64,000 bases of DNA, taken from the NCBI RefSeq assembly GCF_901827185.1, contig NZ_LR594671.1, forward strand, positions 4,304,001 through 4,368,000, in the 5' to 3' direction. The stretch's first letter is position 1. Each line of letters starts with the position of its first letter. Source of the stretch: Variovorax sp. PBL-E5. Lineage in GTDB: Bacteria; Pseudomonadota; Gammaproteobacteria; Burkholderiales; Burkholderiaceae_C. The notes below the pieces were generated by a model, which saw only the letters and a list, made by a program, of their open reading frames with translations, had not been told where the DNA came from and made no database searches. The translations under genes were made by a program, and so were the position numbers. Positions 39,028 through 64,000 of this stretch are shown piece after piece.

Positions 39028-39984
39028 TCAAAGATCGAGAACGAGGTGTTCGCCGACGCAGCCCGACACGCAAACCATCATCGTCCGGTTCGAAGCGCGC
39101 TCCTCGCTCGAGAGCACCGAATCCCGGTGCGCCGGAATGCCCTCGAGCACCCGTGTCTCGCAGGCGCGGCAGACGCCCTCGCGGCAACCGCAATCGGCGT
39201 CGATGCCGGCTTGGTGCAGGGCATCGAGCAGCGCGACGCCCGGCTGTACGGCAAGGGTCCGGCCGGTGCGCGCCAGCGTCACCGTGTAGGGATGCTGCTG
39301 CCGCGACACCCCGTGCCCCGCATCCGCCGCAAAGCGTTCGACATGGACCTTCCTGAAGCCGAGTTCCTCGCAGATGCGTTCGAAGGCAGCAATCATCGGC
39401 GCCGGCCCGCAGCAATAGAAATCGCTCGCCGCCGGTTCGCCCGAGAGGAATTCGCGCAGATCGGGCGGCCTTCCCTGCTCTTCGTCGAAGTGGAAGCTGA
39501 CGCTCTTCGACGACCCGAGCCGTTCGCAGAATGCTGCCTCCGGCCGGGACCGCGCGCAGTACAGCAGCGACGCCGGCTTGCCCAGCGCCGCGAGCCGCTC
39601 GTGCATGGCGAGGATCGGCGTGATGCCGATGCCGCCCGCCAGCAGGACCGACCTCGACGCTTCGGTATTCAGCGGGAAATGATTGCGCGGCGGCGAGATG
39701 TCCAGCATCGACCCGACCGCGAGCCGCTCGTGGACATGGCGCGATCCGCCGCGGCTGTTCCTGTCGTTGAGGATGGCGATCCGGTAGCGATCGCCTTCGG
39801 TGTCCGGGTTCAGCAGCGAGTAGCTGCGGACCAGATCCGGCGCCAGGTGCAGGTCGATGTGCGCCCCGGGCTCGAAGACCGGCAACGCTTCTCGCGTGCG
39901 CGGACGCAGCTCGAGGCTCACGATGTGCCGGGCTTCGCGGCGGACGGCGCTCACCGTCACGTGCAAAAGAGAAGAGCTGTTCAT
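39028..39984 (-). CDS. Rieske-oxygenase reductase (phthalate dioxygenase reductase / VanB family)
   Basis: A 318-residue flavin reductase. FMN domain: FEPGAHIDLHLAPDLVRSYS with the RSYSLLN motif. NAD domain: LLAGGIGITPILAMHERLAA and FYCCGPAPMIAAFE. The C-terminal plant-type [2Fe-2S] ferredoxin has cysteines in DADCGCREGVCRACETRVLE and VCVSGCVGEHLVLDL. It passes electrons from NADH to a Rieske oxygenase, almost certainly the VanA-type enzyme at 44398. The start at 39984 follows homologue length. A promoter element shared with the oxygenase lies upstream (40041-40060). Confidence 0.92.
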   Translation of the reverse strand: MNSSSLLHVTVSAVRREARHIVSLELRPRTREALPVFEPGAHIDLHLAPDLVRSYSLLNPDTEGDRYRIAILNDRNSRGGSRHVHERLAVGSMLDISPPRNHFPLNTEASRSVLLAGGIGITPILAMHERLAALGKPASLLYCARSRPEAAFCERLGSSKSVSFHFDEEQGRPPDLREFLSGEPAASDFYCCGPAPMIAAFERICEELGFRKVHVERFAADAGHGVSRQQHPYTVTLARTGRTLAVQPGVALLDALHQAGIDADCGCREGVCRACETRVLEGIPAHRDSVLSSEERASNRTMMVCVSGCVGEHLVLDL

Positions 39985-40040
39985 GGTCGCTTCGCGTTTC
40001 GATATCCGATAGGGCAGAAGCGAAAATTGTCGAAGGCCGT

Positions 40041-40060
40041 GGACGAAAGAAAAAATCGTT
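40041..40060 (-). promoter_or_regulatory. CGATTT element upstream of the reductase gene
   Basis: On the minus strand it reads AACGATTTTTTCTTTCGTCC, 57 bp upstream of the reductase start. Similar elements stand before the porin (41797), the oxygenase (44333) and a binding-protein gene (47685). It is proposed as a binding site of one of the two LysR regulators in this island. Confidence 0.4.
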
Positions 40061-40149
40061 CCTTTGGATGCGAGGCATCGCGCGAAGTGATGCATCGCGT
40101 CGCACGCGCTCATCGACCGCGCGCCCTGCTTCGGTTAGACTCGCGCTCG

Positions 40150-40345: not shown

Positions 40346-40436
40346 CGGCAACTTGAACATGCGTTCCGGTTGCTTTTCTTTTTGCAGCATCCGTTTCGCC
40401 GTGTTCGAGCGCCAAAACCTCGAAGGGGTTCTTGAC

Positions 40437-41741
40437 ATGCGCGTGATCGTTCTCGGCGCCGGCCTGCTCGGCGTCACCTCGGCCTACTACCTCCAGCAAC
40501 TCGGCCACGACGTGACCGTGATCGACCGGCAGGCCACGCCGGCCGCCGAAACCAGCTTCGCCAACGGCGGCCAGATCTCGGTCAGCCATGCCGAGCCCTG
40601 GGCCAACCCGAGCGCGCCGCTCAAGGTGCTGCAATGGCTCGGCAAGGAAGACGCACCCCTGCTCTTTCGCTTCCGCGCCGACATGCGGCAGTGGCTCTGG
40701 GGCCTGCAGTTCCTGCGTGAATGCACGCCGGCGCGCACCCGCCACAACATCGAGCAGATCGTGCGGCTGGGCACCTACAGCCGCGCGACGCTGCAGCAGC
40801 TGCGCCGCGACACCGGCCTCGACTACGAGCAGCGCACGCAGGGCATCCTGCACTTCTACACGACCCAAAAGGAATTCGATGGCGCGCTCAAGCCCGCCGA
40901 GCAGATGCGCGCACTCGGCTGCGAACGCCAGGTGATCTCGGCCGACGAAGCCGTGCGGCTCGAACCCGCGCTGGCTCATATCCGCCCGCAGCTGGCCGGC
41001 GCCACCTACACGGCCGAGGACGAGTCGGGCGACGCCAACCGCTTCGCGCGCGAGCTGGTCAAGCTCTGCCAGGCGGCCGGTGTGAGGTTCCTCATGAGCC
41101 ACACGGTGACCGCGATCCGCGAGGCCGGCGGCAGCATCGACCACGTCGAGGCGACCGACAGCGAAGGCCGCTTCCAGCGCATCCGCGGCGATGCCTTCGT
41201 GCTCGCGATGGGCTCGCTCAGCCCCCTCTATGCGGCGCCGTTGGGCATCCGGCTGCCGATCTATCCGGCCAAGGGCTATTCGGTCACGCTGCCGGTCATC
41301 GATGCCTCGAAGGCCTATCAGGTCTCGCTCACCGACGACGAATACAAGCTGGTGTTCTCGCGCTACACCTCGGCCACGGGCGACCGCATGCGCATCGCCG
41401 GCACGGCCGAACTCAACGGCTACGACCGCGACCTGAACCGCGTGCGCTGCGAGGCCATCGTGCGGCGCGTCGAGCAGCTGTTCCCCGGCGCCGGCGACAC
41501 GACGCAGGCCCAGTTCTGGACCGGGCTGCGCCCCGCCACGCCGAGCAACGTGCCGCTGATCGGCGCCACCCGGTTGCCGAACCTGTTCCTCAACACCGGC
41601 CACGGCACGCTGGGCTGGACGCACGCCTGCGGTTCGGGCAAGTCGATCGCGCGCATCGTGAGCGGACTCGCGCCGGAGGTGGATTTCGCCTTCACCGGCG
41701 CGACGCCGCGGCCGCCGGTCCTCGGCTTGCAGGGCGCGTAG
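40437..41741 (+). CDS. dadA: D-amino-acid dehydrogenase small-subunit family (DadA-like), glycine-riboswitch controlled
   Basis: A 434-residue FAD enzyme. The FAD-binding motif is RVIVLGAGLLGVTSAYYLQQ, followed by TSFANGGQISVSHAEPWANP, PIYPAKGYSVTLPVID, and the C-terminal FAD motif NLFLNTGHGTLGWTHACGSG. DadA enzymes oxidise D-amino acids to keto acids, passing electrons to the respiratory chain. The start at 40437 has AAGGGG upstream; the frame is open through the riboswitch but that part is not coding. With a glycine aptamer upstream, glycine, sarcosine or D-alanine are plausible substrates. Confidence 0.9.
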   Translation: MRVIVLGAGLLGVTSAYYLQQLGHDVTVIDRQATPAAETSFANGGQISVSHAEPWANPSAPLKVLQWLGKEDAPLLFRFRADMRQWLWGLQFLRECTPARTRHNIEQIVRLGTYSRATLQQLRRDTGLDYEQRTQGILHFYTTQKEFDGALKPAEQMRALGCERQVISADEAVRLEPALAHIRPQLAGATYTAEDESGDANRFARELVKLCQAAGVRFLMSHTVTAIREAGGSIDHVEATDSEGRFQRIRGDAFVLAMGSLSPLYAAPLGIRLPIYPAKGYSVTLPVIDASKAYQVSLTDDEYKLVFSRYTSATGDRMRIAGTAELNGYDRDLNRVRCEAIVRRVEQLFPGAGDTTQAQFWTGLRPATPSNVPLIGATRLPNLFLNTGHGTLGWTHACGSGKSIARIVSGLAPEVDFAFTGATPRPPVLGLQGA

Positions 41742-42126: not shown

Positions 42127-43356
42127 ATGAAGAGAAAAATATGGCTGACATCGGTGGCGCTGGCCGCCGCCGGCGCGGCCTCGGCCCAGTCGTCCATCAC
42201 CGTGTTCGGCACGATCGATACCGCGATCAGCGGCTACTCGAACCGCTCGACGGACCCGAACGGGCCGACGCTGCTGAACCCCTTCTACGTCAACCGGGGC
42301 AGCGTGACGACGAGCCAGACCGCGCTCACCAATTCCAACTATTTCGCCAGCCGCATCGGCTTTCGCGGCACGGAGGACCTCGGCGGCGGACTGGCTGCGA
42401 GCTTCTGGCTCGAAGCGCCGTTCTCGAGCGACGACGGACAGACCGGCATCACCACCTTCTCGCGCCGGTCCACTGTCAGCCTCTTGGGCGGCTTCGGCGA
42501 GATCCGACTCGGGCGCGACTACACCGCGACGGTCTGGAACGACACCGCGCTGGACCCGTTCACCACCTTCGGTGTCGGCACCAACCTGATCCTGCGACCG
42601 AGCTTCGCGCTGAACTCCTTCGCGCCTTCCTACACCACGCCCGCCGGCACGGCCAACGTGACCGGCAACAACTACCTGCGCGCCAGCAACATGGTCGCCT
42701 ACTTCCTGCCGCCGGATCTCGGCGGCTTCTATGGCCAGGTGCAATACGCGTTCGGCGAACGCACGCACTACAGCCCCGGCAATTTCACGCCGGTCGGTGC
42801 CGAGACGCGCGCGGGCCGCTACGTCGGCGCGCGCTTCGGCTGGGCCAACGGACCGATCAACATCGCGGCGGCGTATGGCGAAAGCACCCTGGACAGCAAC
42901 TACGACGCCGGCAGCACGGCGAAGCTCGATACCTTCAACATCGCCGGCTCCTACGACTTCGGTCCGGTGAAATTGTTCGCCGAACTCTCCAGGGTCAAGC
43001 GCAAGGTCGACGATGTGGTTGCACCGCCCGCACCCGTGAACACCATCGACGTCAACGGCTACATGCTGGGGCTGATGGCGCCCATCGGTCCCGGCCTGAT
43101 CCGCGCCAGCTACGGCAATGTGCGCTACGACACTCACCAGACAGTGCCTGGCAGCCCGGGCGATCCACGCGCCGACCAATGGGCGCTGGGCTACGTCCAC
43201 AATCTGTCGAAGCGCACGGCGTTGTATGCCACCGTGGCCCGCATCCGCAACAGGAACGGCGCCAACCTGAGCGTCGGCGGCCCGGCGTTCGTGACCACCG
43301 GTTTCGTTCCGAAGACCTCGACCGGCTACGACCTGGGTATCCGCCACAACTTCTGA
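42127..43356 (+). CDS. Outer-membrane porin (Gram-negative, Burkholderia-type)
   Basis: A 409-residue porin with a signal peptide (KIWLTSVALAAAGAASAQ), the opening strand SSITVFGTIDTAISGYSN, the NYFASRIGFRGTEDLGGGLA segment, SVSLLGGFGEIRLGRDYTA-like wording (STVSLLGGFGEIRLGRDY) and the C-terminal barrel strand TGYDLGIRHNF ending in phenylalanine. It likely lets the substrate of the neighbouring oxygenase pathway through the outer membrane. It is followed directly by a hairpin and a LysR gene. Confidence 0.93.
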   Translation: MKRKIWLTSVALAAAGAASAQSSITVFGTIDTAISGYSNRSTDPNGPTLLNPFYVNRGSVTTSQTALTNSNYFASRIGFRGTEDLGGGLAASFWLEAPFSSDDGQTGITTFSRRSTVSLLGGFGEIRLGRDYTATVWNDTALDPFTTFGVGTNLILRPSFALNSFAPSYTTPAGTANVTGNNYLRASNMVAYFLPPDLGGFYGQVQYAFGERTHYSPGNFTPVGAETRAGRYVGARFGWANGPINIAAAYGESTLDSNYDAGSTAKLDTFNIAGSYDFGPVKLFAELSRVKRKVDDVVAPPAPVNTIDVNGYMLGLMAPIGPGLIRASYGNVRYDTHQTVPGSPGDPRADQWALGYVHNLSKRTALYATVARIRNRNGANLSVGGPAFVTTGFVPKTSTGYDLGIRHNF

Positions 43357-43387: not shown

Positions 43388-44278
43388 ATGAATTTTCTGA
43401 AGCTCGATCTGAATCTCCTGGTCGCGCTGGACGCCCTGCTGACGGACCCGCACGTCACGCGCGCCGCGGAACGCCTGTGCGTGAGCCAGCCCACGCTCAG
43501 CGGTTCGCTGGCGCGGCTGCGCGACTACTTCCAGGACGAGCTGATCGTCCAGGTCGGGCGGCGCATGGAACTGACGCCGATGGCCGAGGCCATGCGCCAG
43601 CCGTTGCGCAACGTGCTGGGCGATGCGGAAAAACTCCTGTCGACCAAGTCGCACTTCGACCCCGGCACCTCGGAGCGCCGCTTCACGCTCACCTGCACCG
43701 ACTACGTCTGGGCCACGCTGATCGGCAAGGTCCTCCGGCGCCTGGCGTCGGAAGCACCAGGCATCCGGCTCGAATACGGCGGCACCGCGCGCGACTTTGC
43801 CGAGCACCGCGTCGAACTCCTCATCGTCGCCGACCGCTTTGCGCTGAAGGAGCATTCGTCGAGGCAGCTGTTCCAGGAATCCTTCGTCTGCATCGCGTGG
43901 TCCGGCAACGACCGGATCGGCGATGCAATCAGCTTCGACGAGTACTTCGCGCAGGACCACATCGTCGCCTGGTCGTCGCGGCCGACCCTGGTCGCGGACT
44001 GGATCGCGGCCCGGCATGGCATGCGCTGCCGCATCGCGACCCGTGTTCCCGACTTCACGATGGTCCCGCAATCGATCGTCGGGACGCCCTATCTCGCCAC
44101 CGTGCCGACGCGCATGGCCAACCACTACGCGGGCCATCTTCCGCTGCGGATCCTGGAGGCGCCGCTCGAACTGCCGGTCCTCACACAGGTCATGCAGTGG
44201 CACCGGCATCAGGAATCGGACCAGGGCATGCAATGGCTGCGCGAACTGATCGTCGACTGCTGCCTGACGAACCGCTGA
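43388..44278 (+). CDS. LysR-family regulator (NodD-like), copy 1
   Basis: A 296-residue LysR regulator. The helix-turn-helix is DLNLLVALDALLTDPHVTRA then AERLCVSQPTLSGSLARLRD. The effector domain has FTLTCTDYVWATLIGKVLRR and PQSIVGTPYLATVPTRMANH, as in the NodD/NahR-like branch. It is strikingly similar along its length to the regulator at 50082-50987. It sits just upstream of the oxygenase gene, which it probably activates. Confidence 0.92.
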   Translation: MNFLKLDLNLLVALDALLTDPHVTRAAERLCVSQPTLSGSLARLRDYFQDELIVQVGRRMELTPMAEAMRQPLRNVLGDAEKLLSTKSHFDPGTSERRFTLTCTDYVWATLIGKVLRRLASEAPGIRLEYGGTARDFAEHRVELLIVADRFALKEHSSRQLFQESFVCIAWSGNDRIGDAISFDEYFAQDHIVAWSSRPTLVADWIAARHGMRCRIATRVPDFTMVPQSIVGTPYLATVPTRMANHYAGHLPLRILEAPLELPVLTQVMQWHRHQESDQGMQWLRELIVDCCLTNR

Positions 44279-44397: not shown

Positions 44398-45447
44398 ATG
44401 ACTCTCATCCGAAATGCCTGGTATGCCGCAGCCTGGTCCCACGAGATCCAGCGCACGCTGCTGGCCCGCACGATCCTGCAAGAACCCGTGGTGCTGTTCC
44501 GGCGCGAGGACGGCGAGCCCGCTGCGCTGGCCGACCGCTGCCCGCACCGCTTCGTTCCGCTGCATCGCGGAACCCTGAAGGGCGACACCGTCGAATGCGG
44601 CTACCACGGCCTGTGCTTCAACGCGCAGGGGGCCTGCACCCACAACCCGCACGGCAATGGACTGATTCCGAGAATGGCGCGGGTCCGCGCCTATCCGCTG
44701 GTCGAATCGCAAGGCGTGGTGTGGATCTGGATGGGTCCGCCCGAGCTGGCCGACCCGGCCGCGATCGTGCGCTTCGAACCGCTCGAGGACGACCGCTTCG
44801 AAACGGTCCACGGCTACCTGCACGTGAACGCGAACTACCAGCTGATCAGCGACAACCTGCTCGACCTCACGCACGGCCAGTACGTGCATCCGATGTTCCG
44901 CAATGCCGCGGGGCCGGCCGCCATGGAAGAGTCGCCGGCGAACGGCGACACGGTCTGGGCCCGCTTCGTGCGCCGCGACCAATTGCCCAACGGGTACTTC
45001 AAGATGCTGGGCTTCCCGCCCGAGCAGCGCGGCGACCACCGCAACTTCATGCGCTGGAATCCACCGGGCAATCTGCTGCTGGACGTCGGCATGACCGCGG
45101 TCGGCGGTCGGCCGGAGGACGGCCTGTCGATTCCGACGACGCACCTGCTGACGCCGGAGACCGAGACCAGCTCGCACTACTTCTGGGCCATGTCGCGCAA
45201 CTTCCGGACCGGCGACCGGGCGCTCAGCGACGAGTTGCTGCGCGTGGGCATCGACATCTTCAACAACGAGGACAAGCCCGTGATCGAAGCGCAGCAGGCC
45301 TACATGCAATCCGAGACCGACCTCTTCAAGATGAAGCCGATCCTGCTGTCGACCGATGCGCCGGCGGTGCGCGCGCGGCGCATTCTCAAGGAGCGCGCGG
45401 AACGGGAACAGCGGCAGGGCGCGGCAGTGCCGGTGCCCGCGAAATAA
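44398..45447 (+). CDS. Rieske non-haem iron oxygenase, vanillate O-demethylase oxygenase (VanA) family
   Basis: A 349-residue oxygenase. The N-terminal Rieske domain (MTLIRNAWYAAAWSHEIQ) has [2Fe-2S] ligands in DRCPHRFVPLHRG and VECGYHGLCFNAQG. The catalytic domain has the iron-site segment SDNLLDLTHGQYVHP with two histidines and the bridging aspartate. VanA relatives remove methyl groups from oxygen or nitrogen as formaldehyde. The formaldehyde dehydrogenase two genes downstream supports demethylation here. The reductase partner is at 39028. The true substrate is unknown. Confidence 0.92.
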   Translation: MTLIRNAWYAAAWSHEIQRTLLARTILQEPVVLFRREDGEPAALADRCPHRFVPLHRGTLKGDTVECGYHGLCFNAQGACTHNPHGNGLIPRMARVRAYPLVESQGVVWIWMGPPELADPAAIVRFEPLEDDRFETVHGYLHVNANYQLISDNLLDLTHGQYVHPMFRNAAGPAAMEESPANGDTVWARFVRRDQLPNGYFKMLGFPPEQRGDHRNFMRWNPPGNLLLDVGMTAVGGRPEDGLSIPTTHLLTPETETSSHYFWAMSRNFRTGDRALSDELLRVGIDIFNNEDKPVIEAQQAYMQSETDLFKMKPILLSTDAPAVRARRILKERAEREQRQGAAVPVPAK

Positions 45448-45460
45448 GCGCGAGATCGCC

Positions 45461-46521
45461 ATGAACGAAACACAAGAGGCCGAGCGTGCAGTCCCCGAGC
45501 TCCTGATCGGCTGCAGCGGACGCGGCGTCCGGGCCTCCTCGCCGAGCGCACCCGTGACGATGGAGGAGCATCCGATCGACACCCAGTTCGCGATGGTCAA
45601 GGAAAGCGGCGTCTTCGACTACCTCGCGCGCCTGCCGAGCCGCGGCAACCTCGACCCGTACCTCGCGGCAATGCGCAAGCACGACCTGCGCATCGAACAG
45701 CCGACCTGGTACTACCTGCTCGGCCGCGACGAAGCGCTGCTGCGTGACAACCTGCTGATCTGCAGCGAGGTCGGCGTTCGCCACCACAACATCATGACCT
45801 TCACGCACCATGCCGACGGCCATGCATTGAGCGACCAGGAGGTGGTCGACCACTACCTCGATACCTACGACTTCGGCATGGCGCGCGGCGTCGAACCGAG
45901 CTTCGAAGTGCACGTCAACATGTGGACCGAGCAGTTCAAGCGCGTCGCCGAAGTCGCGAATGCGGTCCAGGCGCGCGGCATTCCCTTCAACTTCACGATG
46001 GACTACAGCCACGCGACCTTCAAGATCGGCAACCCGGCCGAGCTCGAGATCTCGGGCGTGCGCGAAGAGGTCGAGGACGGCCGCATCGTGCTCGATCCTT
46101 TCGAGAAAGGATCGCTGTGCGCGCAATGGCTGGCGCAGGGCATCGTGCGCCTGGTGCAGTTCCGTCCCGCGGGACCGAACCAACCGCCGAATGTGTGGGC
46201 GCGCAACGAGGATGGCAGCGCGACGCGCGGCATCCAGTACCCGATGATGCGGCCCGCGCCCGGCGAGTGGCATTCGCCCTGGCACGCGTATTTGCTCGAA
46301 CCGTCGAAGGAAGCGCTGCGCAAGGCGCTCGCGCATCACCTGGGCGATCCGGCGAGCCGGCTGCGCTGTGTGACCACCGAGTTGATCGACATGCCCGACT
46401 ACGGCATGGGCGCGAAGTACGACCTGTTCGAACAGAACGTCGAGGCGGCGAGGTTCGTTCGCAGGACCTGGCAACGCACGCAGGCGCTGCACGCCGCGGG
46501 CCTGCTCGAAAAGGTCGAATG

Positions 46522-46522
<1 letters not shown>
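45461..46522 (+). CDS. Unrecognised 353-residue protein, possible TIM-barrel isomerase/hydrolase
   Basis: Not recognised with certainty. It starts [20 protein letters not shown] and has conserved-looking metal-type residues: [60 protein letters not shown] and [20 protein letters not shown]. The regular strand-helix order with E, H, D-x-H patterns is like xylose-isomerase-type TIM barrels (inference). It lies between the oxygenase and formaldehyde dehydrogenase and overlaps the latter's start. It is thus very probably an enzyme acting on the oxygenase product. Confidence 0.75.
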
Positions 46523-47628
<1,106 letters not shown>

Positions 47629-54275: not shown

Positions 54276-55162
54276 TGGATCTCCTTGAGGATGTTGTCGA
54301 TGCGGCGCTGCACGCCGCTCCATTGGCTGCGGCCCACGGTGACGGGCGCTCTCGAACCGAGGCCGCGCGCCCAGACGAACTTGAGGCCGAGTTCCTGCGC
54401 CGCATCGCGATCGATGCCGCCGGGCGGCGCGGCGAGGTCGACCAGGAGCGCATGCTTGGGCAATTTCTCGAGCATCTCGCGCCCCAGCACGCGCGCGGGC
54501 ACGCTGGCGATCACGATGTCGGTGCCGGGCAGCACCTCGGCGAGCTCGGACAGTTCGTGCGGTTCCGCACCGGCCGCATAGGCCCCGGCGCGCTGCACCG
54601 CATTGCGCGCCGCGACGTGCACGCGCGCGCCGAGCGCGAGCAGCATGCGCGTGACCAGCGTGCCGATGGTGCCCTGCCCGATCTGGCAGACCTTGGCCTT
54701 GTGGATCGTGATGTCGGTGTTCTCGATCAGCACCTTGAGCATGCCTTCGACGATGGCCGGGCCGCGCAGCAGCATCAGGTCTTCGTCCCATTCGTACTCG
54801 TGCAGCGTGATGCCGATGGTTTCGCAATGCGCCTTCAGCTTGGGATCGGCCCAGCCGAGGATGATGTGGCCCGGCCGGCGCATGGCGCCGAGCATGGCGG
54901 CGTCGGGGATGATGCGCTCGGCGCATTGCGGCGCGAACAATGCGCCGTCGGGCGCAATGCCGGGGATCGGGAACAGCGCGATGTCGGCGCCCTTCAACGC
55001 TTCGGCGGCGTTCGCGGTGTGGCGCACGCCTTCGATGCCCTGCCCGGGCCAGGGGAAGCCATAGGCGCGCACCTCGGCGCCGGCGGCGACGGCGCAGCGC
55101 GCGATTTCCTGCTCGCGACGGTCACCGCCGACGATCGCGATGACGACCTGATCCCAGTTCAT
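54272..55162 (-). CDS. Dipicolinate synthase subunit A-like dehydrogenase (DpaA/SpoVFA family)
   Basis: A 296-residue Rossmann protein. It has the DpaA layout: AIVGGDRREQEIARCAVAAG at the start, ADIALFPIPG, AIVEGMLKVLIENTDITIHK, the NAD(P) motif VCQIGQGTIGTLVTRMLLAL and LLVDLAAPPGGIDRDAAQEL. In spore formers this protein makes dipicolinate with DpaB. No DpaB-like gene is here and the host is not a spore former. In this operon it more likely acts on another imine or ring compound. ATGA overlaps exist at both ends. Confidence 0.8.
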   Translation of the reverse strand: MNWDQVVIAIVGGDRREQEIARCAVAAGAEVRAYGFPWPGQGIEGVRHTANAAEALKGADIALFPIPGIAPDGALFAPQCAERIIPDAAMLGAMRRPGHIILGWADPKLKAHCETIGITLHEYEWDEDLMLLRGPAIVEGMLKVLIENTDITIHKAKVCQIGQGTIGTLVTRMLLALGARVHVAARNAVQRAGAYAAGAEPHELSELAEVLPGTDIVIASVPARVLGREMLEKLPKHALLVDLAAPPGGIDRDAAQELGLKFVWARGLGSRAPVTVGRSQWSGVQRRIDNILKEIQ

Positions 55163-56257: not shown

Positions 56258-57061
56258 TCAATGTGCGACGAGCACGCCCTTGGCTTCGAAGATCTCGCGC
56301 ACCTGGCGAACGTAGTGCTGGAAGCGCGGGTCTTCATGGACGCCGCTCCAGCGGCGCGGACGCGGGATGTCGATGGTCAGATCGAGATCGACGCGGCCGG
56401 GCCGCGGCGACATGACGATCACGCGGTCGGCGAGGAACACCGCCTCGTCGATGCCGTGGGTGATGAAGAGCACGGTGTTGCGCAGCCGCATCCACATCGT
56501 CTGCAGGTCCATGATCATCTGCTCGCGCGTGAGCGCGTCGAGCGCGCCGAAGGGCTCGTCCATCAGCAGCAGGCCGGGCTCCTGGATCAGCGCGCGGCAG
56601 ATCGCGACGCGCTGGCGCATGCCGCCGGAGAGCTCGGAGGGGTACTTGTTGTCGAAGCCGCTGAGGCCGACCTGCGCGAGCAGATCGCGCGCGCGATCGG
56701 CATAGGCCACGCGGTCCATGCCCTTGATCTCGATCGGCAACAGGATGTTGTCGAGGATGCTTCTCCAGTAGAGCAGCAGGTCGGACTGGAAGACGACGCC
56801 GGCCTTCGGATGCGGCTTGACGACTTCGTCGCCGTCGATGCCCAGGCGGCCCGAGCTGACCGGCGTCAGGCCGGCGAGCAGGGACAGCAGTGTGCTTTTG
56901 CCGCAGCCGCTCGGGCCGACGATGGCGACGAAGCTGCCGGGCGCGATGTCGAGATCGACGCGGTCGAGCGCCAGCACGTCGTCGCCGGCGCGCACCTCGT
57001 AGGACTTGGAGACGCCCTGGATGGTGACGGCGGCGGCATGTCCGGCCACAACGCTACTCAT
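56258..57061 (-). CDS. ABC-transporter ATPase (nitrate/sulfonate/NMT1-type importer)
   Basis: A 267-residue ATPase with Walker A VGPSGCGKSTLLSLL, Q-loop VFQSDLLLYWRSILDN, signature SELSGGMRQRVAICRAL, Walker B LLLMDEPFGALDALTRE and H-loop FITHGIDEA. This pattern is of the SsuB/TauB/NrtD/ThiZ group. AGGAGG upstream of the ATG at 57061 fixes the start. With the permease and binding protein it forms a complete importer. Confidence 0.93.
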   Translation of the reverse strand: MSSVVAGHAAAVTIQGVSKSYEVRAGDDVLALDRVDLDIAPGSFVAIVGPSGCGKSTLLSLLAGLTPVSSGRLGIDGDEVVKPHPKAGVVFQSDLLLYWRSILDNILLPIEIKGMDRVAYADRARDLLAQVGLSGFDNKYPSELSGGMRQRVAICRALIQEPGLLLMDEPFGALDALTREQMIMDLQTMWMRLRNTVLFITHGIDEAVFLADRVIVMSPRPGRVDLDLTIDIPRPRRWSGVHEDPRFQHYVRQVREIFEAKGVLVAH

Positions 57062-57103
57062 GGGTGGGCCTCCTGGCATCGGCCGCGGGATGCATGTGCT
57101 TGA

Positions 57104-57928
57104 TCATTTGGCGCTTTCACGTTGATACGAAACCTTGCTCTCGACGAGCGAAAGAACGAAATAGAGCAGCACGCCGATCAGCGAGATGGTGACGACGGTC
57201 GCGAAGTTGAGGGTGGTGTCGAACTGCGAGTTGGCCTGCAGCTGCAGGTAGCCGAGTCCGCGTTCGGCAGCGATGTATTCGCCGATGATGGCGCCGATCA
57301 CGGCCAGCGAGATCGCGACCTTCAGGCCGCCGAAGATGCTCGGCAATGCGGCCGGCAGGCGGACCTTGAAGAAGGTCTGCAATTCGCTGGCGCCCATCGA
57401 CCGCACCATGTTGACCAGCGCCTTGTCGAGCGACTGCAGGCCGACCACCGTCGAGATCACGATCGGGAAAAAGGAGATCAGGAACGCCAGGCTGATCTTC
57501 GGCGCCCAGCCGTAGCCGAGGTAGAGGACCAGCAACGGCGCCAGTGCGATCTTCGGCACGGTCTGCAGCGCGACCAGGAGCGGGTAGACCGCACGCTCGA
57601 AGACCTTCGAATAGAAGATCGCGAGCGCCAGCGGAATCCCGATGATCACGCCGGCAAAGAAGCCGGCGAGCACTTCGAGCAGCGTGATGTAGGAGTGGGC
57701 CGCCAGCAGGTTGAAGTCCGTCACCATGCGCTTGGCGATGGCCAGCGGTGTCGGCAGCACGAATTCCGACAGTCCGGACAGCGGGACCGCGATCTGCCAG
57801 ATGACGAGGATCGCCGCCGCCAGCAGCAAGGACGCATAGCGCTCGAGCAGATTGACGCGAGGCGGCTTCTTCTTGGTGCTTCCGACGTTGGGCATGGCGA
57901 CGATCCCGGGATGTTTCAATTCGGTCAT
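57104..57928 (-). CDS. ABC-transporter permease (NMT1/SsuC type)
   Basis: A 274-residue inner-membrane protein with about six spans (LLLAAAILVIWQIAVPLSGL, VLAGFFAGVIIGIPLALAIF) and the ATPase-coupling loop ASELQTFFKVRLPAALPSIF. It ends with VVTISLIGVLLYFVLSLVES. A BPD_transp_1 permease with a signature like ThiX/SsuC. It lies 13 bp after the binding-protein gene and 42 bp before the ATPase gene. Confidence 0.93.
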   Translation of the reverse strand: MTELKHPGIVAMPNVGSTKKKPPRVNLLERYASLLLAAAILVIWQIAVPLSGLSEFVLPTPLAIAKRMVTDFNLLAAHSYITLLEVLAGFFAGVIIGIPLALAIFYSKVFERAVYPLLVALQTVPKIALAPLLVLYLGYGWAPKISLAFLISFFPIVISTVVGLQSLDKALVNMVRSMGASELQTFFKVRLPAALPSIFGGLKVAISLAVIGAIIGEYIAAERGLGYLQLQANSQFDTTLNFATVVTISLIGVLLYFVLSLVESKVSYQRESAK

Positions 57929-57941: not shown

Positions 57942-58940
57942 CTAGGGATTCAGCAGGGCATTGGTGAAGAAGACATCGGCCGGCTTCGGCGTGCCGATGG
58001 CTTCGTCTGTCTTAAGCAGGTTCAGTGCCTGGACGATGGTGTTGGCATCCGTCCATCCGACCGGCTTGCCCGCCTCGGTCTCGATCGCATCCATCGTGGC
58101 GCGCACCTGCGCCTCGATCACGTCCGCCGAAGGACCGCCCTGCCAGGCCTTGGCGAGCGCGGCCGTCGCGGCCTTGGGATCCTTGCGCGTGGCTGCGATC
58201 CCTTCGTTCACCGCCGCCAGGTAGCGCTTGAGCACATCGGGCTTCTTCGCGATGATCGCGTTGCTCGACACGGCGGCCAGGCCGGGGATCGCGAGCCCGT
58301 TCTGCGCCAGGTCGAGCATCGGGAACCTGGTGTCCATGCGCGCCTCGATGATCGGCAGGTCATTGTTGCGATAGACGCTCACCACGTCCACCTGCTTCTG
58401 CAGGAATTGCGGCACGCGCGACTGCGCATCCATCTGCACCTTCTTCACCTTGCTGCAATCGATGTGGTTGACCGCACAGAAGGCCGACAGGTAGGACGTG
58501 CCGGTTTCGCCGACGGCATGCGCCACGGTCTTGCCTTCGAGATCCTTGGGCTTGAGCACCGGTTTGTCGGGCTGCGAGATCAGCACGATCGGCGTCTTCG
58601 GTTGATAGAGGGCGACGATCTTGATCGGCATGCCCTTCTGGATCGCGGAAACGGCGAAGATGGCCGGCATCACGACCACGTCCTCCTGACCCTGCAGCAG
58701 AGCGCCCAGCGCCGCCGGTGCGCCGGCGCCCTCGCCCATGCGCACGGCGAGGTTCTTCGCAGCATAGAAGCCCTTGTCCTGCGCCAGGTAGAGATGCGCG
58801 TATTCCCCCTTCAGTTTCCAGCTGAAACGGACGTTGACCTCGTCCGCCGCCCAGGCATGAGCACCCAGGCTCAGCACTGCAACCAGTGCGGCAGTTCGCC
58901 AGCGCGCGCACATCGAGAAACTTGCACGAGGAAATCGCAT
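57942..58940 (-). CDS. ABC-transporter substrate-binding protein (NMT1/THI5-like), copy 2
   Basis: A 332-residue periplasmic protein with signal peptide (RTAALVAVLSLGAHAWA). The mature part begins VNVRFSWKLKGEYAHLYLAQ and keeps GAPAALGALLQGQEDVVVMP and KDLEGKTVAHAVGETGTSYL, parallel to copy 1 at 47779. It is the first gene of the nine-gene leftward operon. The ATG at 58940 opens directly into the signal peptide. The divergent GntR regulator and its palindromes lie 120-200 bp upstream. Confidence 0.9.
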   Translation of the reverse strand: MRFPRASFSMCARWRTAALVAVLSLGAHAWAADEVNVRFSWKLKGEYAHLYLAQDKGFYAAKNLAVRMGEGAGAPAALGALLQGQEDVVVMPAIFAVSAIQKGMPIKIVALYQPKTPIVLISQPDKPVLKPKDLEGKTVAHAVGETGTSYLSAFCAVNHIDCSKVKKVQMDAQSRVPQFLQKQVDVVSVYRNNDLPIIEARMDTRFPMLDLAQNGLAIPGLAAVSSNAIIAKKPDVLKRYLAAVNEGIAATRKDPKAATAALAKAWQGGPSADVIEAQVRATMDAIETEAGKPVGWTDANTIVQALNLLKTDEAIGTPKPADVFFTNALLNP

Positions 58941-59142: not shown

Positions 59143-59889
59143 ATGGAACAGACTGCCGAACGCCAACGACAAGAGGCTGTCGAAGAGCCGACCAAGCGCG
59201 GCCGCGGCCGTGTGCAGGAAGAAGTCTTCCAGCGCCTGCGACGCGGACTCATGGTGGGCGCCTTCGTGCCCGGTCAGGTGATGAGCCTGCGCAAACTCGC
59301 CAGCAGCTTCGGCACCAGCCCGATGCCGATTCGCGAAGCCTTGACGCGGCTGGTGGTCACCAACGCGCTCGAGGACACGGCGAACGGTTCGGTCCGGGTT
59401 CCGCGCCTCACGCCCAAGAAGCTGAACGAACTCTTCGCGGTGCGCGAACTCGTCGAAGGCCTTGCGGCCGAGATGGCTTGCCGCAATGGCACGCCGGCCT
59501 TGCTGAAGACGCTCACCACCATCAACAACGAGTTGCTCGACGCCATCGCGAAGCGCAACCTGCTGGGCTGTCTCTCGTCGAACCAGCGCTTTCACTTCAC
59601 GCTCTACCAGGCCGCCGACACGGAAGTGCTGATGCCGCTCGTGGAATCGCTCTGGCTGCAGTTCGGCCCCACGATGTACCTCTCGCTGCTGTCGCCCGAC
59701 ATACCCTGGGATGCCTCCGCGCATCTCGAGATCCTCGAGGGTATGCACACGAAGAAGCCCGCGGTCGCCAAGCGCGGCGTGTTGCGCGACATTCGCAACA
59801 CGGGACGTTCGCTGGTGCCCGCGCTGGGCGAGCCGGAAGCCGCCAACCTGCTTTCAGCGCCGCTCGACGATCTCTATTTCGGCAGCTGA
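59143..59889 (+). CDS. GntR-family regulator (FCD/FadR-like)
   Basis: A 248-residue regulator. The winged helix (VQEEVFQRLRRGLMVGAFVP, SLRKLASSFGTSPMPIREAL) has the usual GntR SPMPIREAL wording. The FCD ligand domain follows (FAVRELVEGLAAEMACRNGT, SSNQRFHFTLYQAADTEVLM) with possible metal-site residues. It is divergent from the importer/opine-dehydrogenase operon and probably controls both that operon and the RidA-CobW genes behind it. Confidence 0.92.
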   Translation: MEQTAERQRQEAVEEPTKRGRGRVQEEVFQRLRRGLMVGAFVPGQVMSLRKLASSFGTSPMPIREALTRLVVTNALEDTANGSVRVPRLTPKKLNELFAVRELVEGLAAEMACRNGTPALLKTLTTINNELLDAIAKRNLLGCLSSNQRFHFTLYQAADTEVLMPLVESLWLQFGPTMYLSLLSPDIPWDASAHLEILEGMHTKKPAVAKRGVLRDIRNTGRSLVPALGEPEAANLLSAPLDDLYFGS

Positions 59890-59918: not shown

Positions 59919-60389
59919 ATGACCCAACACCAGGCCGAAGCGCGCCTCGAACAACTCGGCATCACGCTGCCCAAGGCCGTCGCGCCGGCGGCGAACTACG
60001 TTCCGGCGCGCAGAAGCGGCTCGATGATCTACATCGCAGGCCAAGTGCCGACCGCGGACGGCAAGGACCAGTACGTCGGCAAGGTCGGCCGCGACGTGTC
60101 GATCGAAGACGCACAGAAGGCAGCCCGGCTTTGCGCGATCAACATCCTCGCCCAATTGCGCACCGCGCTGGGCGGCAGCCTGGACAGCGTGGTCGGCTGC
60201 GTGCGCCTGGGCGGCTTCGTGAATGCCGCGCCCGAGTTCGGCGACCATCCCAAGGTGATCAACGGCGCATCGGACCTCATGGTCGAGGTCTTCGGCGATG
60301 CCGGCCGGCATGCGCGCGCGGCCGTCGGCTGCAGCTCGCTGCCGCGCAACGTCGCCGTGGAGGTGGACGCCATCTTCGAGGTCGCCTGA
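59919..60389 (+). CDS. RidA/YjgF-family protein
   Basis: A 156-residue protein of the RidA-like branch (slightly longer than the 130-residue RidA). It has YVPARRSGSMIYIAGQVPTA, VGCVRLGGFVNAAPEFGDHP and the substrate-binding arginine and glutamate in LPRNVAVEVDAIFEV. RidA enzymes hydrolyse reactive enamine/imine intermediates made by PLP enzymes or amine dehydrogenases. The location next to opine-dehydrogenase-like and deaminase genes fits clearing of imines. Confidence 0.9.
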   Translation: MTQHQAEARLEQLGITLPKAVAPAANYVPARRSGSMIYIAGQVPTADGKDQYVGKVGRDVSIEDAQKAARLCAINILAQLRTALGGSLDSVVGCVRLGGFVNAAPEFGDHPKVINGASDLMVEVFGDAGRHARAAVGCSSLPRNVAVEVDAIFEVA

Positions 60390-60392: not shown

Positions 60393-61421
60393 ATGGCCCA
60401 CGCCGAGCCCGCCGCAGGGCATCGCGCCGACAGCCGCACGCCGATCCATGTGCTGACCGGCTTCCTGGGCAGCGGCAAGACGACGCTGCTGCGCCACCTG
60501 CTGGCCGACCGGGCGCTCGCGGACACCGCGGTGGTCATCAACGAGTTCGGTGAAGTGGGGCTCGATCACCTGCTGGTGCGCGAGGTGGCCGAGGACGTGG
60601 TGCTGCTGAGCTCCGGCTGCCTGTGCTGCTCGGTGCGCGATGACCTGGTGTCGACGCTGGCCGAGCTGCACGGGCTCATGCGCACGGGCGAGATCCCGGC
60701 CTTTGCCCGCGTCGTCGTCGAGACCACCGGCCTCGCCGATCCGGCACCGATCATGCAGGCGATCCTGAGCGAACAGAGCCTGACACCCTTCTTCCGGCTC
60801 GGCCAGGTGATCACGACCGTGGATGCAGTGAACGGCGAGCACACCTTGACCGCCCATCGCGAAGCGCGGCAACAGCTCGCCACCGCCGACCGCGTCATCG
60901 TGACCAAGATCGATCTCGTCGAGGACGCCGACTGCACAGTGCTGGTCGAGAAGCTGGCGCAGATGAATCCGTCGGCGACGATGCTGATGTCCCGCAAGGC
61001 GCAGTTGCCCGCATCGCAGATCCTCGAAGAAGCCGACGCGCAATGGCGTCTTCCGCGAGCATCGAGTGAGGCCTCGCACGCACATGGCCATCACGCGCAC
61101 GGCCACGACCAGGCCATCAAGACCTTCACCGTGCAGTTGGAGCAAGCACTCGACTGGGCCGCCTTCGTCGACTGGCTCGAACTGCTGCTCGCCAGCCGCG
61201 GCGATTCGATCCTGCGCGTGAAGGGTCTGCTGGCGGTGCAGGACGACGATCGCCCCGTCGTCGTGCAGGGCGTGCAGCACGTGCTCTACCCCATCGAGCG
61301 CCTGCCGCGCTGGCCCGACGAATCGGCGCGGCCCGGCTGGATCGTGTTCATCGCGCGCGACCTGACGCAGCGCGCGATCGAGAACTCCTTGCGCTCGGTC
61401 TACGAACCCAGCATCGCCTGA
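60393..61421 (+). CDS. CobW-family (COG0523) GTPase, probable metal chaperone
   Basis: A 342-residue G3E GTPase with P-loop [20 protein letters not shown], the metal-binding CxCC in LLSSGCLCCSVRDDLVS, GxxD-like VETTGLADPAPIMQAI and the guanine motif VTKIDLVEDAD. A His-rich loop (HAHGHHAHGHD) divides it from the CobW C-terminal domain (DSILRVKGLLAV). It likely delivers zinc or another metal to one of the nearby amidohydrolases. It starts 3 bp after the RidA stop. Confidence 0.9.
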   Translation: MAHAEPAAGHRADSRTPIHVLTGFLGSGKTTLLRHLLADRALADTAVVINEFGEVGLDHLLVREVAEDVVLLSSGCLCCSVRDDLVSTLAELHGLMRTGEIPAFARVVVETTGLADPAPIMQAILSEQSLTPFFRLGQVITTVDAVNGEHTLTAHREARQQLATADRVIVTKIDLVEDADCTVLVEKLAQMNPSATMLMSRKAQLPASQILEEADAQWRLPRASSEASHAHGHHAHGHDQAIKTFTVQLEQALDWAAFVDWLELLLASRGDSILRVKGLLAVQDDDRPVVVQGVQHVLYPIERLPRWPDESARPGWIVFIARDLTQRAIENSLRSVYEPSIA

Positions 61422-61448: not shown

Positions 61449-61454
61449 TCCGCA

Positions 61455-62894
61455 TCAGTTGCCGCTGTCGTAGAGCGTCGTGGTCGTCTCGACGCCCTCT
61501 TCGTGCAGGCCCGCGCGCACCACCGCTGCGGCCGCGAGCTCCCTGGCCTTGCGGCGCAGCGCGGGCTCGTCGATGCCGTGCACCTTGCCTTCGCTGTAGA
61601 GCGTCTTGCCGTCGACCCAGGTCTGCGAGATGGAGGCCGTGGAGGCGGAAAAGACCAGCGCCTGCAGCGGATCGTGAAACGGCGTCCATTCGATGTGGTC
61701 GAGATCGAAGAGGATGAAGTCCGCCTTCTTGCCGACCTCGAGCGAGCCGATGTCATGGTCCCACATCGCGGCCTTGGCGCCATCGATGGTCGCCGCGCGC
61801 AGCGCCTGCCGCGCCGTGAAGATGTCGGGCTTCATGCGCGCGTCCTTGAACATGCCGGCCACGATCAGCATCTGCCGCATCAGGTTCATGTTGCCGGCCG
61901 CAGAAACACCGTCGGTGCCGAGGCCGACCGTGACGCCGGCCGCGACCATCTCCGGATACTTGCCGATCTTCGTCGCGCCCTTGCCGAGTTTGAACGAGGA
62001 GCACGGGCAGAACGCGACCTTCGCGCCGCGCTCGGCCAGGAGCTTCACTTCGTCGTCGCTGACCGCAGCACCGTGCGCGATCACGAGGTTGGAGCCGATG
62101 CCGCCCGCGCGGTCGATGCGCGTGATGGGCCAGCAGCCGTACTTCTCTTCGCACACGCGCGCTTCCTCGATCGAGGTCGCCAGGTGGTAGGTCGTGCCGA
62201 CGCCGAGCCGCTCGGCGAGCTTCTGTGCGCCCACGTGCAGCTCGAGCGTGCACGGCTCCTTGCCTTCGATGTTGACCCAGCAGCGCACGCGGCCGTCGAG
62301 CGCGCCATCGTATTTGCGCACGCAGGCTTCGAGCTCGGCCAGCGCGGCTTGCGCGTTCGGAAAGAAATGATGCCGCGCCATCTCCTCGGTCCAGCCGCGC
62401 GGCAGTTCCGGCGGCGGATTGTCGGCGGCATGCCGGCCGGTGACGCCGCGGATGCCGGTCTGCTCCATCGCCCGCACGGTGATGCCGGGGTCGTACTGCG
62501 AGCCCATGTCGATGAAGCAGGTCGTGCCGTTGCGCAGCATCTCGGTGATGCCGAGCAGCGCGCCCCAGTACTCGTCTTCCTCGGTGATGTGCGCATAGAA
62601 GGGCTTGGCCCAGTGGAACACCCACGCGCGCGTATTGAGGTTGTCGGGAAACACGGCGCGCGACAGGGTTTCGGACAGATGGACGTGGCTGTCCACGAAG
62701 CCCGGGCAGATGCCGAGCATGCGGCCGTCCATCACGCGATCGAAGGACTCGCCGCGATGCCTCGCCGCGACCTCCGCGGCCGCACCGATGTCGACGATGC
62801 GGTCGTTCTCGATCAGGATGCTGGCGTCGCGCACGACGGTGTCGTTGGCGTCGACGAGAAAGGCGAATTCGAGATGCTCGATGAGCGTACGCAT
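61455..62894 (-). CDS. AtzA/SsnA-type amidohydrolase (deaminase/chlorohydrolase family)
   Basis: A 479-residue zinc or iron amidohydrolase. Ligands are in CPGFVDSHVHLSETLSRAVF (HxH), TTYHLATSIEEARVCEE, SNLVIAHGAAVSDDEVKLL (histidine) and GLGTDGVSAAGNMNLMRQML (aspartate). Members deaminate adenosine-like purines, guanine, melamine or triazines. The exact substrate is unknown. It lies 36 bp after the M24 gene on the same strand and may be one unit with it. Confidence 0.88.
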   Translation of the reverse strand: MRTLIEHLEFAFLVDANDTVVRDASILIENDRIVDIGAAAEVAARHRGESFDRVMDGRMLGICPGFVDSHVHLSETLSRAVFPDNLNTRAWVFHWAKPFYAHITEEDEYWGALLGITEMLRNGTTCFIDMGSQYDPGITVRAMEQTGIRGVTGRHAADNPPPELPRGWTEEMARHHFFPNAQAALAELEACVRKYDGALDGRVRCWVNIEGKEPCTLELHVGAQKLAERLGVGTTYHLATSIEEARVCEEKYGCWPITRIDRAGGIGSNLVIAHGAAVSDDEVKLLAERGAKVAFCPCSSFKLGKGATKIGKYPEMVAAGVTVGLGTDGVSAAGNMNLMRQMLIVAGMFKDARMKPDIFTARQALRAATIDGAKAAMWDHDIGSLEVGKKADFILFDLDHIEWTPFHDPLQALVFSASTASISQTWVDGKTLYSEGKVHGIDEPALRRKARELAAAAVVRAGLHEEGVETTTTLYDSGN

Positions 62895-62930
62895 GAGGGG
62901 ATCACTCCACGGTTGAGGTTCGGGCCGCGC

Positions 62931-64000
62931 TCAGCCCTTGACGACCAGCAGCCGGTCGGTGTCGGCGTAGTCGGACAGCAGCTCGCTGCCGTTGGCGGTG
63001 ACGAGCAGCATGTCCTTGTTCTGCATGCCGAAGCCGTACCCCGTTTCATAGCACAGCGGTTCGAAGCCGAGCACCATGCCTTCTTCGATGAGCGCATCGC
63101 TGCCCGGGCGGCCGAGGATGGGCGTCTTGCCGAGGTAGGGATCCTCGTGCAGATGCAGGCCGATGCCATGACCGACAAAGGAGATCGGCGGCAACTTCAT
63201 TTCGGCCAGCTTGGCGATGAAGGCATCGTAGATCGCGCGGCAGCTCGCGCCGGGCTTGACCATCTCCATGATGCGGTACTTGCAGTCCACCAGATGCTGC
63301 CAGATCTCGTTGGCCATCGGCGGCGCCTCCCGGACCACGGCAGTGCGGCACACGCCGGCCTGGTAGCCGTCGATCACCGAGAAGATCTCGACGCGGCACA
63401 CGTCGCGCGGCTGCAGCCGGCGCTCCGACGGGCCGACGTTGGGCAGCATGCTGCGCTCGCCGGTCGCGATGATCATCAGCTTGAAATGCTCGGCGCCCAG
63501 CGCATAGACATTGCGCGTCAGGTGGCCGGCGATGTCCATCTCCGAATCGCCCGCCTTCACGGAGGCCAGCGCGTCGGTGATGGCCTGGTCGGCAATGCGC
63601 GAAAGACGGCGCAGCAGCGCGATTTCTTCCGGCGTCTTGATCTGGCGCAACCGCGCGAGGATGTGCTCGCAGCGTTCGAACTTGGCCTGCGGCAGCGCCG
63701 CCTGCAGGCGCGCGAGATCGCCTGCGGGCAGGTAGTCCATCTCGATGCCGATGCGGGCCTGCGCCAGACCGAGCTTCTTCAGCTGATCGGCCAGCACGAG
63801 CATCGCGTCGTCGGTGAATTCGGCCCAGATGCGCGTCGGCACGTTCGGTGCCCGGCGCTTCACGGTGCTGGCTTCCATGTCGACCGAGAAGAGCTCCGTC
63901 TTCGCATCTGCAGTGACGATCGCCATCGCGTGCCGATGCCGGATCAGCGGCTGCGACGGCACGACGAAGCCCGTCGCATAGGCATAGTTCTCGGGCGAGC
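62931..64000 (-). CDS. Creatinase/Xaa-Pro peptidase-fold (M24) protein, 5' end outside the window
   Basis: About 356 residues are visible; the frame is open to the right edge (SPENYAYATGFVVPSQPLIR). The pita-bread domain carries FVGHGIGLHLHEDPYLG and GFEPLCYETGYGF. Of the five metal ligands of metallo-M24 enzymes, the first aspartate is glutamate (RVEIFSVIDG), the second is glycine (GYQAGVCRTAV) and the last glutamate is replaced (GMQNKDMLLVT). This points to a metal-independent, creatinase-like hydrolase and not a peptidase. The N-terminal creatinase domain is mostly outside the window. Confidence 0.82.
   Translation of the reverse strand, partial: SPENYAYATGFVVPSQPLIRHRHAMAIVTADAKTELFSVDMEASTVKRRAPNVPTRIWAEFTDDAMLVLADQLKKLGLAQARIGIEMDYLPAGDLARLQAALPQAKFERCEHILARLRQIKTPEEIALLRRLSRIADQAITDALASVKAGDSEMDIAGHLTRNVYALGAEHFKLMIIATGERSMLPNVGPSERRLQPRDVCRVEIFSVIDGYQAGVCRTAVVREAPPMANEIWQHLVDCKYRIMEMVKPGASCRAIYDAFIAKLAEMKLPPISFVGHGIGLHLHEDPYLGKTPILGRPGSDALIEEGMVLGFEPLCYETGYGFGMQNKDMLLVTANGSELLSDYADTDRLLVVKG

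Follow-up and report, generated by a model that had tools for sequence, protein, structure and literature searches.

The Rut pathway of uracil degradation (RutA-G) contains the isochorismatase-family enzyme RutB, a RidA protein and a RutA-type monooxygenase, and the breakdown of creatinine and N-methylhydantoin uses deaminase, hydantoinase-like and isochorismatase-family enzyme classes. Relatives of several of these enzymes are found together in a 64,000-nucleotide stretch of the Variovorax sp. PBL-E5 genome (contig NZ_LR594671.1, positions 4,304,001 to 4,368,000; the window), in an island that runs from 39.0 kb to slightly beyond the right end. Here it is proposed, with somewhat better than even confidence, that this island is a catabolic system of two modules: a conserved cluster (module A, 51.0 to ~65.3 kb) and a Rieske demethylation block (module B, 39.0-51.0 kb). 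Module A very probably serves the breakdown of a nitrogen-containing ring compound through a gene set common to distantly related bacteria. The best reading of the substrate class is an amino-substituted, pyrimidine-like cyclic ureide or guanidine, the methylated form of which would be demethylated first.

Similarly to the Rut pathway, module A has a RutB-like amidase and a RidA protein; however, no RutA-type monooxygenase was found among the window genes, the predicted ring-opening enzyme is hydantoinase-like, and the RutB model gives 92 of 378 bits. Unlike in the creatinine pathway, the core includes partners that are missing there, and its isochorismatase is distant from N-carbamoylsarcosine amidase. 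In the reductive uric acid cluster of E. coli and C. difficile, the amidohydrolase SsnA and the hydantoinase-type HyuA open nitrogen rings and ureido groups are then cut (PMC12507026). Module A likewise pairs an SsnA-kind amidohydrolase with a hydantoinase-type enzyme; unlike the uricolytic cluster, it adds a tautomerase, a VOC protein, an enolase-superfamily protein, dipicolinate synthase A (DpaA)-like and opine dehydrogenase-like enzymes, a metal-free M24 protein and RidA.

The nitrogen-ring cluster is real and conserved, it is undescribed in the literature searched, and in PBL-E5 it is joined to the demethylation module. The search on combinations of module A families found no description of such a cluster, which is a weak absence since subscription journals were thinly covered. 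The gene families, their conservation and synteny, the retained catalytic residues and the co-occurrence of the genes are established observations. A DpaA profile search of genome contigs gave 52 loci, of which a 33% match (L068) and a 50-residue fragment (L069) were excluded; in the remaining 50, families were counted by tblastn with the window proteins (DpaA 50/50 by construction). The 4-oxalocrotonate tautomerase-type protein (4-OT) recurs in 44 of them, VOC in 42, the opine dehydrogenase-like protein (OpDH) in 38, the enolase-superfamily protein (MLE) in 34, the hydantoinase-like enzyme (Hyd) in 31, the AtzA-like aminohydrolase and the M24 protein in 29 each, the isochorismatase-type amidase (Iso) in 26, CodA in 19, the PhyH-fold protein in 18 and CobW in 16. 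Of 18 control loci, a single one (L099) has Iso, and none has any of the eight remaining core families or the tautomerase; this is a weak control, with 15 of the 18 from other places in cluster-carrying genomes (PBL-E5 L002, L099; L101, L102, L105-L115), 17 holding a Rieske gene, and lengths of 2.5-20 kb (ten of ~4 kb or less) that are shorter on average. The recurrence of these families around DpaA exceeds chance.

The nine-family core (Iso, VOC, MLE, OpDH, DpaA, Hyd, AtzA, M24, CodA) is complete in 11 of the 28 loci of at least 19 kb (L024, L042, L047, L050, L051, L053, L054, L057, L060, L066, L067), and at least eight families are present in 17 of the 28. By record title the complete loci are proteobacterial or actinobacterial, bar one labelled only 'bacterium', and the DpaA loci as a whole span Proteobacteria, Actinobacteria and Chloroflexi. 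A DpaA-like gene is present in 8 of 150 genomes, including the 7.1 Mb genome of PBL-E5. Five Variovorax congeners (G052, G084, G008, G076, G058) have the module A genes in the order of the window at 65-96% identity, and a contig of Variovorax sp. JS1663 (L018) has them at 66-95%. Among 72,556 plasmid records, a relative of DpaA is present in 14 (10 from Aminobacter, 3 from Shinella and 1 from Phyllobacterium). The three plasmids examined share the enolase, M24, AtzA-like, OpDH, DpaA, hydantoinase-like, PhyH-like, tautomerase and isochorismatase genes, as well as those for a cytosine-deaminase-like protein, GntR, RidA, a CobW-like GTPase, an importer and transhydrogenase; the two Aminobacter plasmids among them additionally have DadA and malate synthase G. 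Also, PurU adjoins locus L053, and a sulfopyruvate-decarboxylase-like pair (below cut-off) adjoins L024, as it does L025 and L029 according to clustering.

Hyd and Iso occur together in 26 of the 50 loci, Hyd alone in five (L043, L045, L048, L056, L058; four of them <14 kb), neither in 19 and Iso alone in none, the pattern expected if the two enzymes act in sequence. Among the 28 full-length loci both are present in 19 and both absent in eight (L029, L030, L036, L037, L038, L055, L063, L064). A reduced form, lacking hydantoinase and isochorismatase, is found in Chloroflexi metagenome-assembled genomes (MAGs) and in two Mycobacterium genomes. A small form holds DpaA, the tautomerase and VOC, in part with MLE and M24, and in several loci lies near genes for a tripartite-type binding protein and a molybdenum hydroxylase (by clustering; Pfam confirmed in L015 and L021). 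Because the small form keeps the tautomerase, VOC and DpaA-like proteins while Hyd and Iso vary, the former look like the centre of the pathway, and the deaminase and ureide enzymes like a feeder for one substrate class.

On the minus strand of module A lie the genes for the isochorismatase-VOC fusion, tautomerase, PhyH-fold protein, hydantoinase-like enzyme, DpaA-like and opine dehydrogenase-like proteins, and the ATPase, permease and binding protein 2 of an ATP-binding cassette (ABC) importer. GntR, RidA and CobW genes follow on the plus strand, and AtzA-like and M24 genes on the minus strand (Table 1). Intergenic gaps of -4 to 24 bp from the binding protein 2 gene through the isochorismatase gene suggest that these form one operon. 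The catalytic residues are conserved among relatives: the isochorismatase Asp, Lys and Cys are retained in 26 of 26 aligned relatives, and the VOC His, His and Glu in the window protein and the 14 relatives shown. The hydantoinase-like HxH, Lys, Tyr, His, His and Asp (presumably the carboxylated Lys, active-site Tyr and metal ligands) are retained in 31 of 31, as the superfamily has them, and the AtzA-like metal ligands HxH, His, His and Asp in 29 of 29. The His and Asp of the opine dehydrogenase-like protein, which we take to be catalytic, are retained in 38 of 38 and place it, with its PF02317 domain, among the N-(1-D-carboxyethyl)-L-norvaline dehydrogenase (CENDH) type; the enolase-superfamily (MLE) residues are kept in every row aligned there (34-35 of 36).

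Of the module A enzymes scored, none passed the threshold for any catabolic enzyme that NCBIfam names, a result that covers the best 25 models listed in the case of the ATPase, AtzA-like and hydantoinase-like proteins; naming the substrate by homology was therefore dropped. Cut-offs of this database are passed by FrmA and DadA of module B and, in relatives, by PurU and malate synthase G. The hydantoinase-like enzyme reaches 268-269 of 393 bits with TIGR02033 (D-hydantoinase/dihydropyrimidinase), as do two more hydantoinase-like genes of PBL-E5 with 275 and 266 bits (C3:330891-332228, C3:141125-142459), all below the cut-off. The tautomerase belongs to its superfamily by PF01361 and the Pro that follows the initiator Met, and falls just under the cut-offs of the 4-oxalocrotonate/2-hydroxymuconate tautomerase equivalog models (66.9 of 80, 52.5 of 55 and 52.3 of 56.9 bits). 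The DpaA-like and opine dehydrogenase-like proteins share their families with dipicolinate synthase A and CENDH, and the His and Asp of the latter align; unlike those enzymes, they stand here in a catabolic context, and the DpaA-like protein is under the curated DpaA cut-offs (207 of 261 bits for NF006162 and 193 of 320 bits). That these two steps fit no known pathway, as first noticed from the sequence, agrees with the present comparison.

The isochorismatase and M24 proteins bear on a kinship to creatinine and methylhydantoin breakdown, which the earlier note, made from the sequence alone, had drawn. Under this explanation a CodA-type deaminase, a hydantoinase, an N-carbamoylsarcosine amidase and Rieske N-demethylation would act on creatinine or methylhydantoin. 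The enzyme classes match and a formaldehyde dehydrogenase is present; also, creatinase is metal-free, and in the M24 protein three of the five metal ligands D, D, H, E, E are replaced (D to E, D to G, E to K in the window protein and 13 relatives) with His and Glu retained, as in a creatinase-like metal-free M24 fold. PBL-E5's own methionine aminopeptidase (L094) and prolidase-like (L095) proteins retain both Asp. However, the M24 protein matches prolidases (E 1.6e-26) above creatinase (1chm, E 4.4e-16), and in a PDB comparison the isochorismatase matches RutB at E 3.1e-20 and N-carbamoylsarcosine amidase (1nba) more weakly, at E 7.6e-07, no model of that amidase having been scored. The hydantoinase-like, deaminase and isochorismatase proteins are far below the cut-offs of the named enzymes scored, a creatininase-family gene (PF02633) sits elsewhere in the PBL-E5 genome, and we know of no role in creatinine breakdown for the tautomerase, VOC, DpaA-like, opine dehydrogenase-like and enolase proteins, most of which are the most recurrent partners. 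The specific kinship is not supported, and this explanation of the island is very improbable.

A bicyclic purine or pteridine is an unlikely substrate, though a better one. Deamination, opening and decarbamoylation would then deal with its pyrimidine ring, and the DpaA-like, opine dehydrogenase-like and M24 proteins with the second ring. The pairing of an SsnA-kind amidohydrolase with a hydantoinase in the reductive uric acid pathway (PMC12507026) is consistent with this, as are genes of a xanthine-dehydrogenase-type molybdenum hydroxylase near nine loci (by clustering; Pfam confirmed in L021) and the pyrimidine-type binding protein suggested by structure prediction. Against it, none of the uricolytic markers YgfK/UacX, YgeW/UacY, YgeX and YgeY, and no M20 peptidase, turned up in the scan of annotated genes between 32.9 and 64.0 kb (to the right of this, the flank was inspected by eye), the AtzA-like protein reaches 126 of 444 bits with the SsnA model, and the tautomerase and VOC have no known role there.

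The importer leads to the third alternative, that the substrate of module A is the pyrimidine moiety of thiamin (hydroxymethylpyrimidine (HMP) or formyl-aminopyrimidine). The predicted model of binding protein 2 is closest to two proteins, one a binder of formyl-aminopyrimidine and one with thiamin bound, a likeness of fold (4nmy is its best PDB sequence match as well, E 2.3e-07) that also speaks for the pyrimidine-like substrate class proposed here. A 4-amino group could be removed by the two aminohydrolases; a 2-methylpyrimidine, however, yields no carbamoyl group for the isochorismatase-type amidase, and this substrate is considered quite improbable.

In module B the gene order is reductase, DadA, porin, LysR, Rieske/VanA_C oxygenase, TIM-like protein, FrmA, binding protein 1, CodA-like protein and LysR. 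Like the Rieske demethylases DdmC, VanA and NdmA, it has a Rieske/VanA_C oxygenase, a reductase and FrmA; unlike those systems, it comes together with a heterocycle cluster and with a binding protein of the NMT1 type. Having both Rieske and VanA_C domains, the oxygenase is a member of the VanA-type demethylases and its demethylation is a prediction, and the ferredoxin-type reductase is its probable electron donor. FrmA is over the cut-off of the glutathione-dependent formaldehyde dehydrogenase model.

The link between modules A and B has moderate support. Oxygenase homologues number 1852, and among the best 120 of these the first 54 are 57-92% identical and later full-length matches at most 53%. 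One homologue (63% identity) lies within cluster A of a Xanthobacteraceae MAG (L025/L116). Pandoraea terrae carries both modules on different contigs, and its oxygenase homologue adjoins homologues of binding protein 1 (53%), LysR2 (53%), the reductase (41%) and importer genes (70%), i.e. a second importer of the same family, and pieces of DadA. An oxygenase homologue of that similarity is found in 2 of 50 cluster genomes. In the family of the MAG it occurs in 1 of 341 genomes, the MAG alone (0 of the 340 others), and in close kin in PBL-E5 alone of 150 (0 of the 149 others, next best 45%; Rieske homologues at E 1e-60 are present in 32 of these 149). The chance of this co-occurrence is ~0.008, a rough value, as the sets overlap (L018, L019, L052 with G084, G058, G024), G157 was picked as centre for carrying the cluster, and the calculation took 540 in place of the exact 539. 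In a further sample from that order, the oxygenase occurs in 1 of 397 genomes (G157 itself) and DpaA in 5 of 397. Additionally, no permease or ATPase gene adjoins that of binding protein 1 in the window, and the two binding proteins share 44% identity.

Several observations weigh against a single island. The five congeners named above have the 51-64 kb half without the 39-51 kb half beside it, which makes the demethylase block an add-on to module A; in G052 and G008 module A is flanked by dadA and then the pnt (transhydrogenase) genes, in that order and without module B, and G076 has the transhydrogenase genes. In two congeners a DadA homologue of 91-93% identity is separated from the core by ~3 kb, and a DadA-type gene of 37-38% identity is in two Aminobacter clusters. 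Two adjacent but unrelated pathways are a serious, if less probable, alternative; module B would then demethylate another compound (e.g. a methoxy-aromatic or an N-methyl-aromatic) and would have landed by insertion between module A and dadA. Among solved structures the oxygenase matches dicamba O-demethylase DdmC best (E 3.6e-70, 240 bits; NdmA 57 bits), and Rieske and TIM-like pairs occur elsewhere without module A, both of which would suit this alternative; the oxygenase inside cluster A of the MAG, the two modules of P. terrae and the unaccompanied binding protein 1 speak for one system. The single island claimed in the earlier note thus stands in part: the MAG and P. terrae favour it, and the congeners with the 51-64 kb half alone do not. 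Its broader claim, that the island serves the catabolism of a nitrogen ring compound, is supported by the presence of enzyme classes for deamination, cyclic-ureide opening, decarbamoylation and a demethylation/formaldehyde branch.

For the two-module system, the reactions, their order, the substrate class and a single compound class for both modules are what we infer. The compound would be taken up by the ABC importer with the NMT1 proteins, and a methylated form of the same compound would be demethylated by the Rieske block, with formaldehyde passing to FrmA. The AtzA-like enzyme, in some relatives also a CodA-like one, may deaminate it to a cyclic ureide, the ring of which would be opened by the hydantoinase-like enzyme, the isochorismatase-type amidase then taking off the carbamoyl group and RidA hydrolysing an enamine. 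The remaining skeleton could be converted to 2-oxo acids by the tautomerase, VOC, enolase-superfamily, metal-free M24, DpaA-like and opine dehydrogenase-like enzymes. Formaldehyde, ammonia and a small amino acid are reasonable candidate products, and in Aminobacter the malate synthase G of its clusters points to glyoxylate.

Because the gene set is so widely kept, the compound handled should be common in nature. Put tentatively, as a possibility that falls short of probable, a pathway in at least three phyla and on plasmids may degrade a common pyrimidine-containing metabolite (e.g. a fragment of a pterin/folate or of thiamin) through reactions not seen before in catabolism: the ureide would be opened and then pass through a tautomerase/VOC/enolase/DpaA-like/opine-dehydrogenase-like route, and methylated forms would enter by way of a Rieske module that can be exchanged. 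Such a mixture of ureide hydrolysis with these enzymes would add a catabolic route and would assign functions to the DpaA-like, isochorismatase-VOC fusion, metal-free M24 and PhyH-fold proteins, now named by distant resemblance; the binding proteins offer a quick experimental way to the substrate.

Table 1. Genes of the two modules. Positions are those of the window except where the genome is named.
Feature	Position	Strand	Basis
Ferredoxin-type reductase	39028..39984	-	Fer2; weak DmmA/GbcB-type matches
DadA, D-amino acid dehydrogenase family	40437..41741	+	491 bits, cut-off 383
Porin_4 outer-membrane porin	42127..43356	+	
LysR-type regulator 1	43388..44278	+	
Rieske oxygenase with VanA_C domain, demethylase type	44398..45447	+	Rieske and VanA_C domains both present
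TIM-barrel-like protein, Rieske-gene companion elsewhere	45461..46522	+	no Pfam or NCBIfam match of its own sequence
FrmA, S-(hydroxymethyl)glutathione dehydrogenase	46522..47628	+	TIGR02818 628 bits, cut-off 544
NMT1-type binding protein 1	47779..48783	+	PF09084
CodA-like amidohydrolase, deaminase type	48805..50166	+	PF07969; NF005759 290 of 403 bits
LysR-type regulator 2	50082..50987	-	
Isochorismatase (RutB/biuret-hydrolase-like amidase) fused to VOC domain	51058..52050	-	PF00857 and PF00903
64-aa tautomerase, 4-oxalocrotonate tautomerase superfamily	52047..52241	-	PF01361 67.9 bits, cut-off 22; Pro after Met
PhyH (iron/2-oxoglutarate dioxygenase)-fold protein	52243..52923	-	fold matches PhyH proteins; usual iron-ligand motif absent
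Hydantoinase/dihydropyrimidinase-like cyclic amidohydrolase	52926..54275	-	best PDB L-hydantoinase 1gkr, E 5.7e-64
DpaA (dipicolinate synthase A)-like NAD(P) oxidoreductase	54272..55162	-	PF16924 over cut-off; best PDB 3d4o, E 1.6e-30
Opine dehydrogenase-like, nearest CENDH	55159..56250	-	PF02317; 1bg6 E 4.6e-48
ABC importer ATPase	56258..57079	-	
ABC importer permease	57104..57928	-	
NMT1-type binding protein 2	57942..58940	-	
GntR-type regulator, divergent from importer operon	59143..59889	+	
RidA/YjgF family	59919..60389	+	PF14588, PF01042
CobW/COG0523 metal GTPase	60393..61421	+	
AtzA-like (cog0402-type) aminohydrolase	61455..62894	-	PDB matches 3hpa, 4f0r, 4v1x
M24-fold hydrolase, creatinase-like	62931..64070 (70 bp past window end 64000)	-	three of five metal ligands replaced
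Enolase-superfamily gene (MLE), just right of window	genome 4368108-4369268		

The gene families listed in the earlier note are all in the sequence where it had put them and were named about right; it missed the VOC fusion, tautomerase, PhyH-fold protein, DadA, porin, two LysR, GntR and TIM-like genes and the enolase gene just outside. The genes for the Rieske, FrmA, hydantoinase-like, RidA, PhyH-like and tautomerase proteins were at first overlooked by automatic gene calling or placed in the wrong frame. Several opposite- or other-frame open reading frames had no family match and were set aside. Beyond the window, the enolase-superfamily gene is accompanied by one whose 99-aa product weakly matches NIPSNAP.

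The PhyH-like protein was rejected as an iron oxygenase, since the HxD...H iron ligands were not found in the 16 aligned proteins, the sole invariant His of which sits in an HN(P) motif. In Aminobacter plasmids it is annotated as 'resolvase' (L118 15942-16625, L120 22231-22914), with which the predicted fold of a homologue disagrees. The CodA-like protein of the window was rejected as cluster A's own deaminase, being 24-34% identical to the CodA proteins of the clusters, with equally similar paralogues in the PBL-E5 genome.

The TIM-like protein seems to be a regular companion of such Rieske oxygenases, with homologues close to other Rieske genes in L097, L098 and L099; a 62% homologue in L098 matches PF01261 below the cut-off. 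L098 (Variovorax congener G003) holds, at 2543-15351, two Rieske and TIM-like pairs (Rieske genes at 4851-5870 and 13243-14280); genes for hydrolases and for a member of the isochorismatase family are close by, and an FrmA homologue at 19208 extends past the stretch analysed. A link to trigonelline or nicotinate through this locus was rejected, as NCBIfam shows no nicotinate enzyme there. PBL-E5 itself has a second such pair (L099 9895-13230, genome 3089894-3093229) near an ABC importer and an isochorismatase-family gene, in which a single TGA within the TIM match seems to be that gene's own stop codon.

Genes for a proton-translocating transhydrogenase are found beside module A in L007, L010, L011, L012, L055 and L118-L120 (Variovorax, Aminobacter, Shinella and one Nocardioides locus), hinting at a need for NADPH. 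The record of L026, a MAG titled Bordetella parapertussis, looks mislabelled, its DpaA, VOC and GntR matches resembling those of uncultured L027, L032 and L033. To the left of the island, at 32877-35823 of the window, are two tripartite tricarboxylate receptor genes (TctC, PF03401), and on the Aminobacter MSH1 plasmid a folE gene for GTP cyclohydrolase I lies near the cluster (L120 7698-8360).

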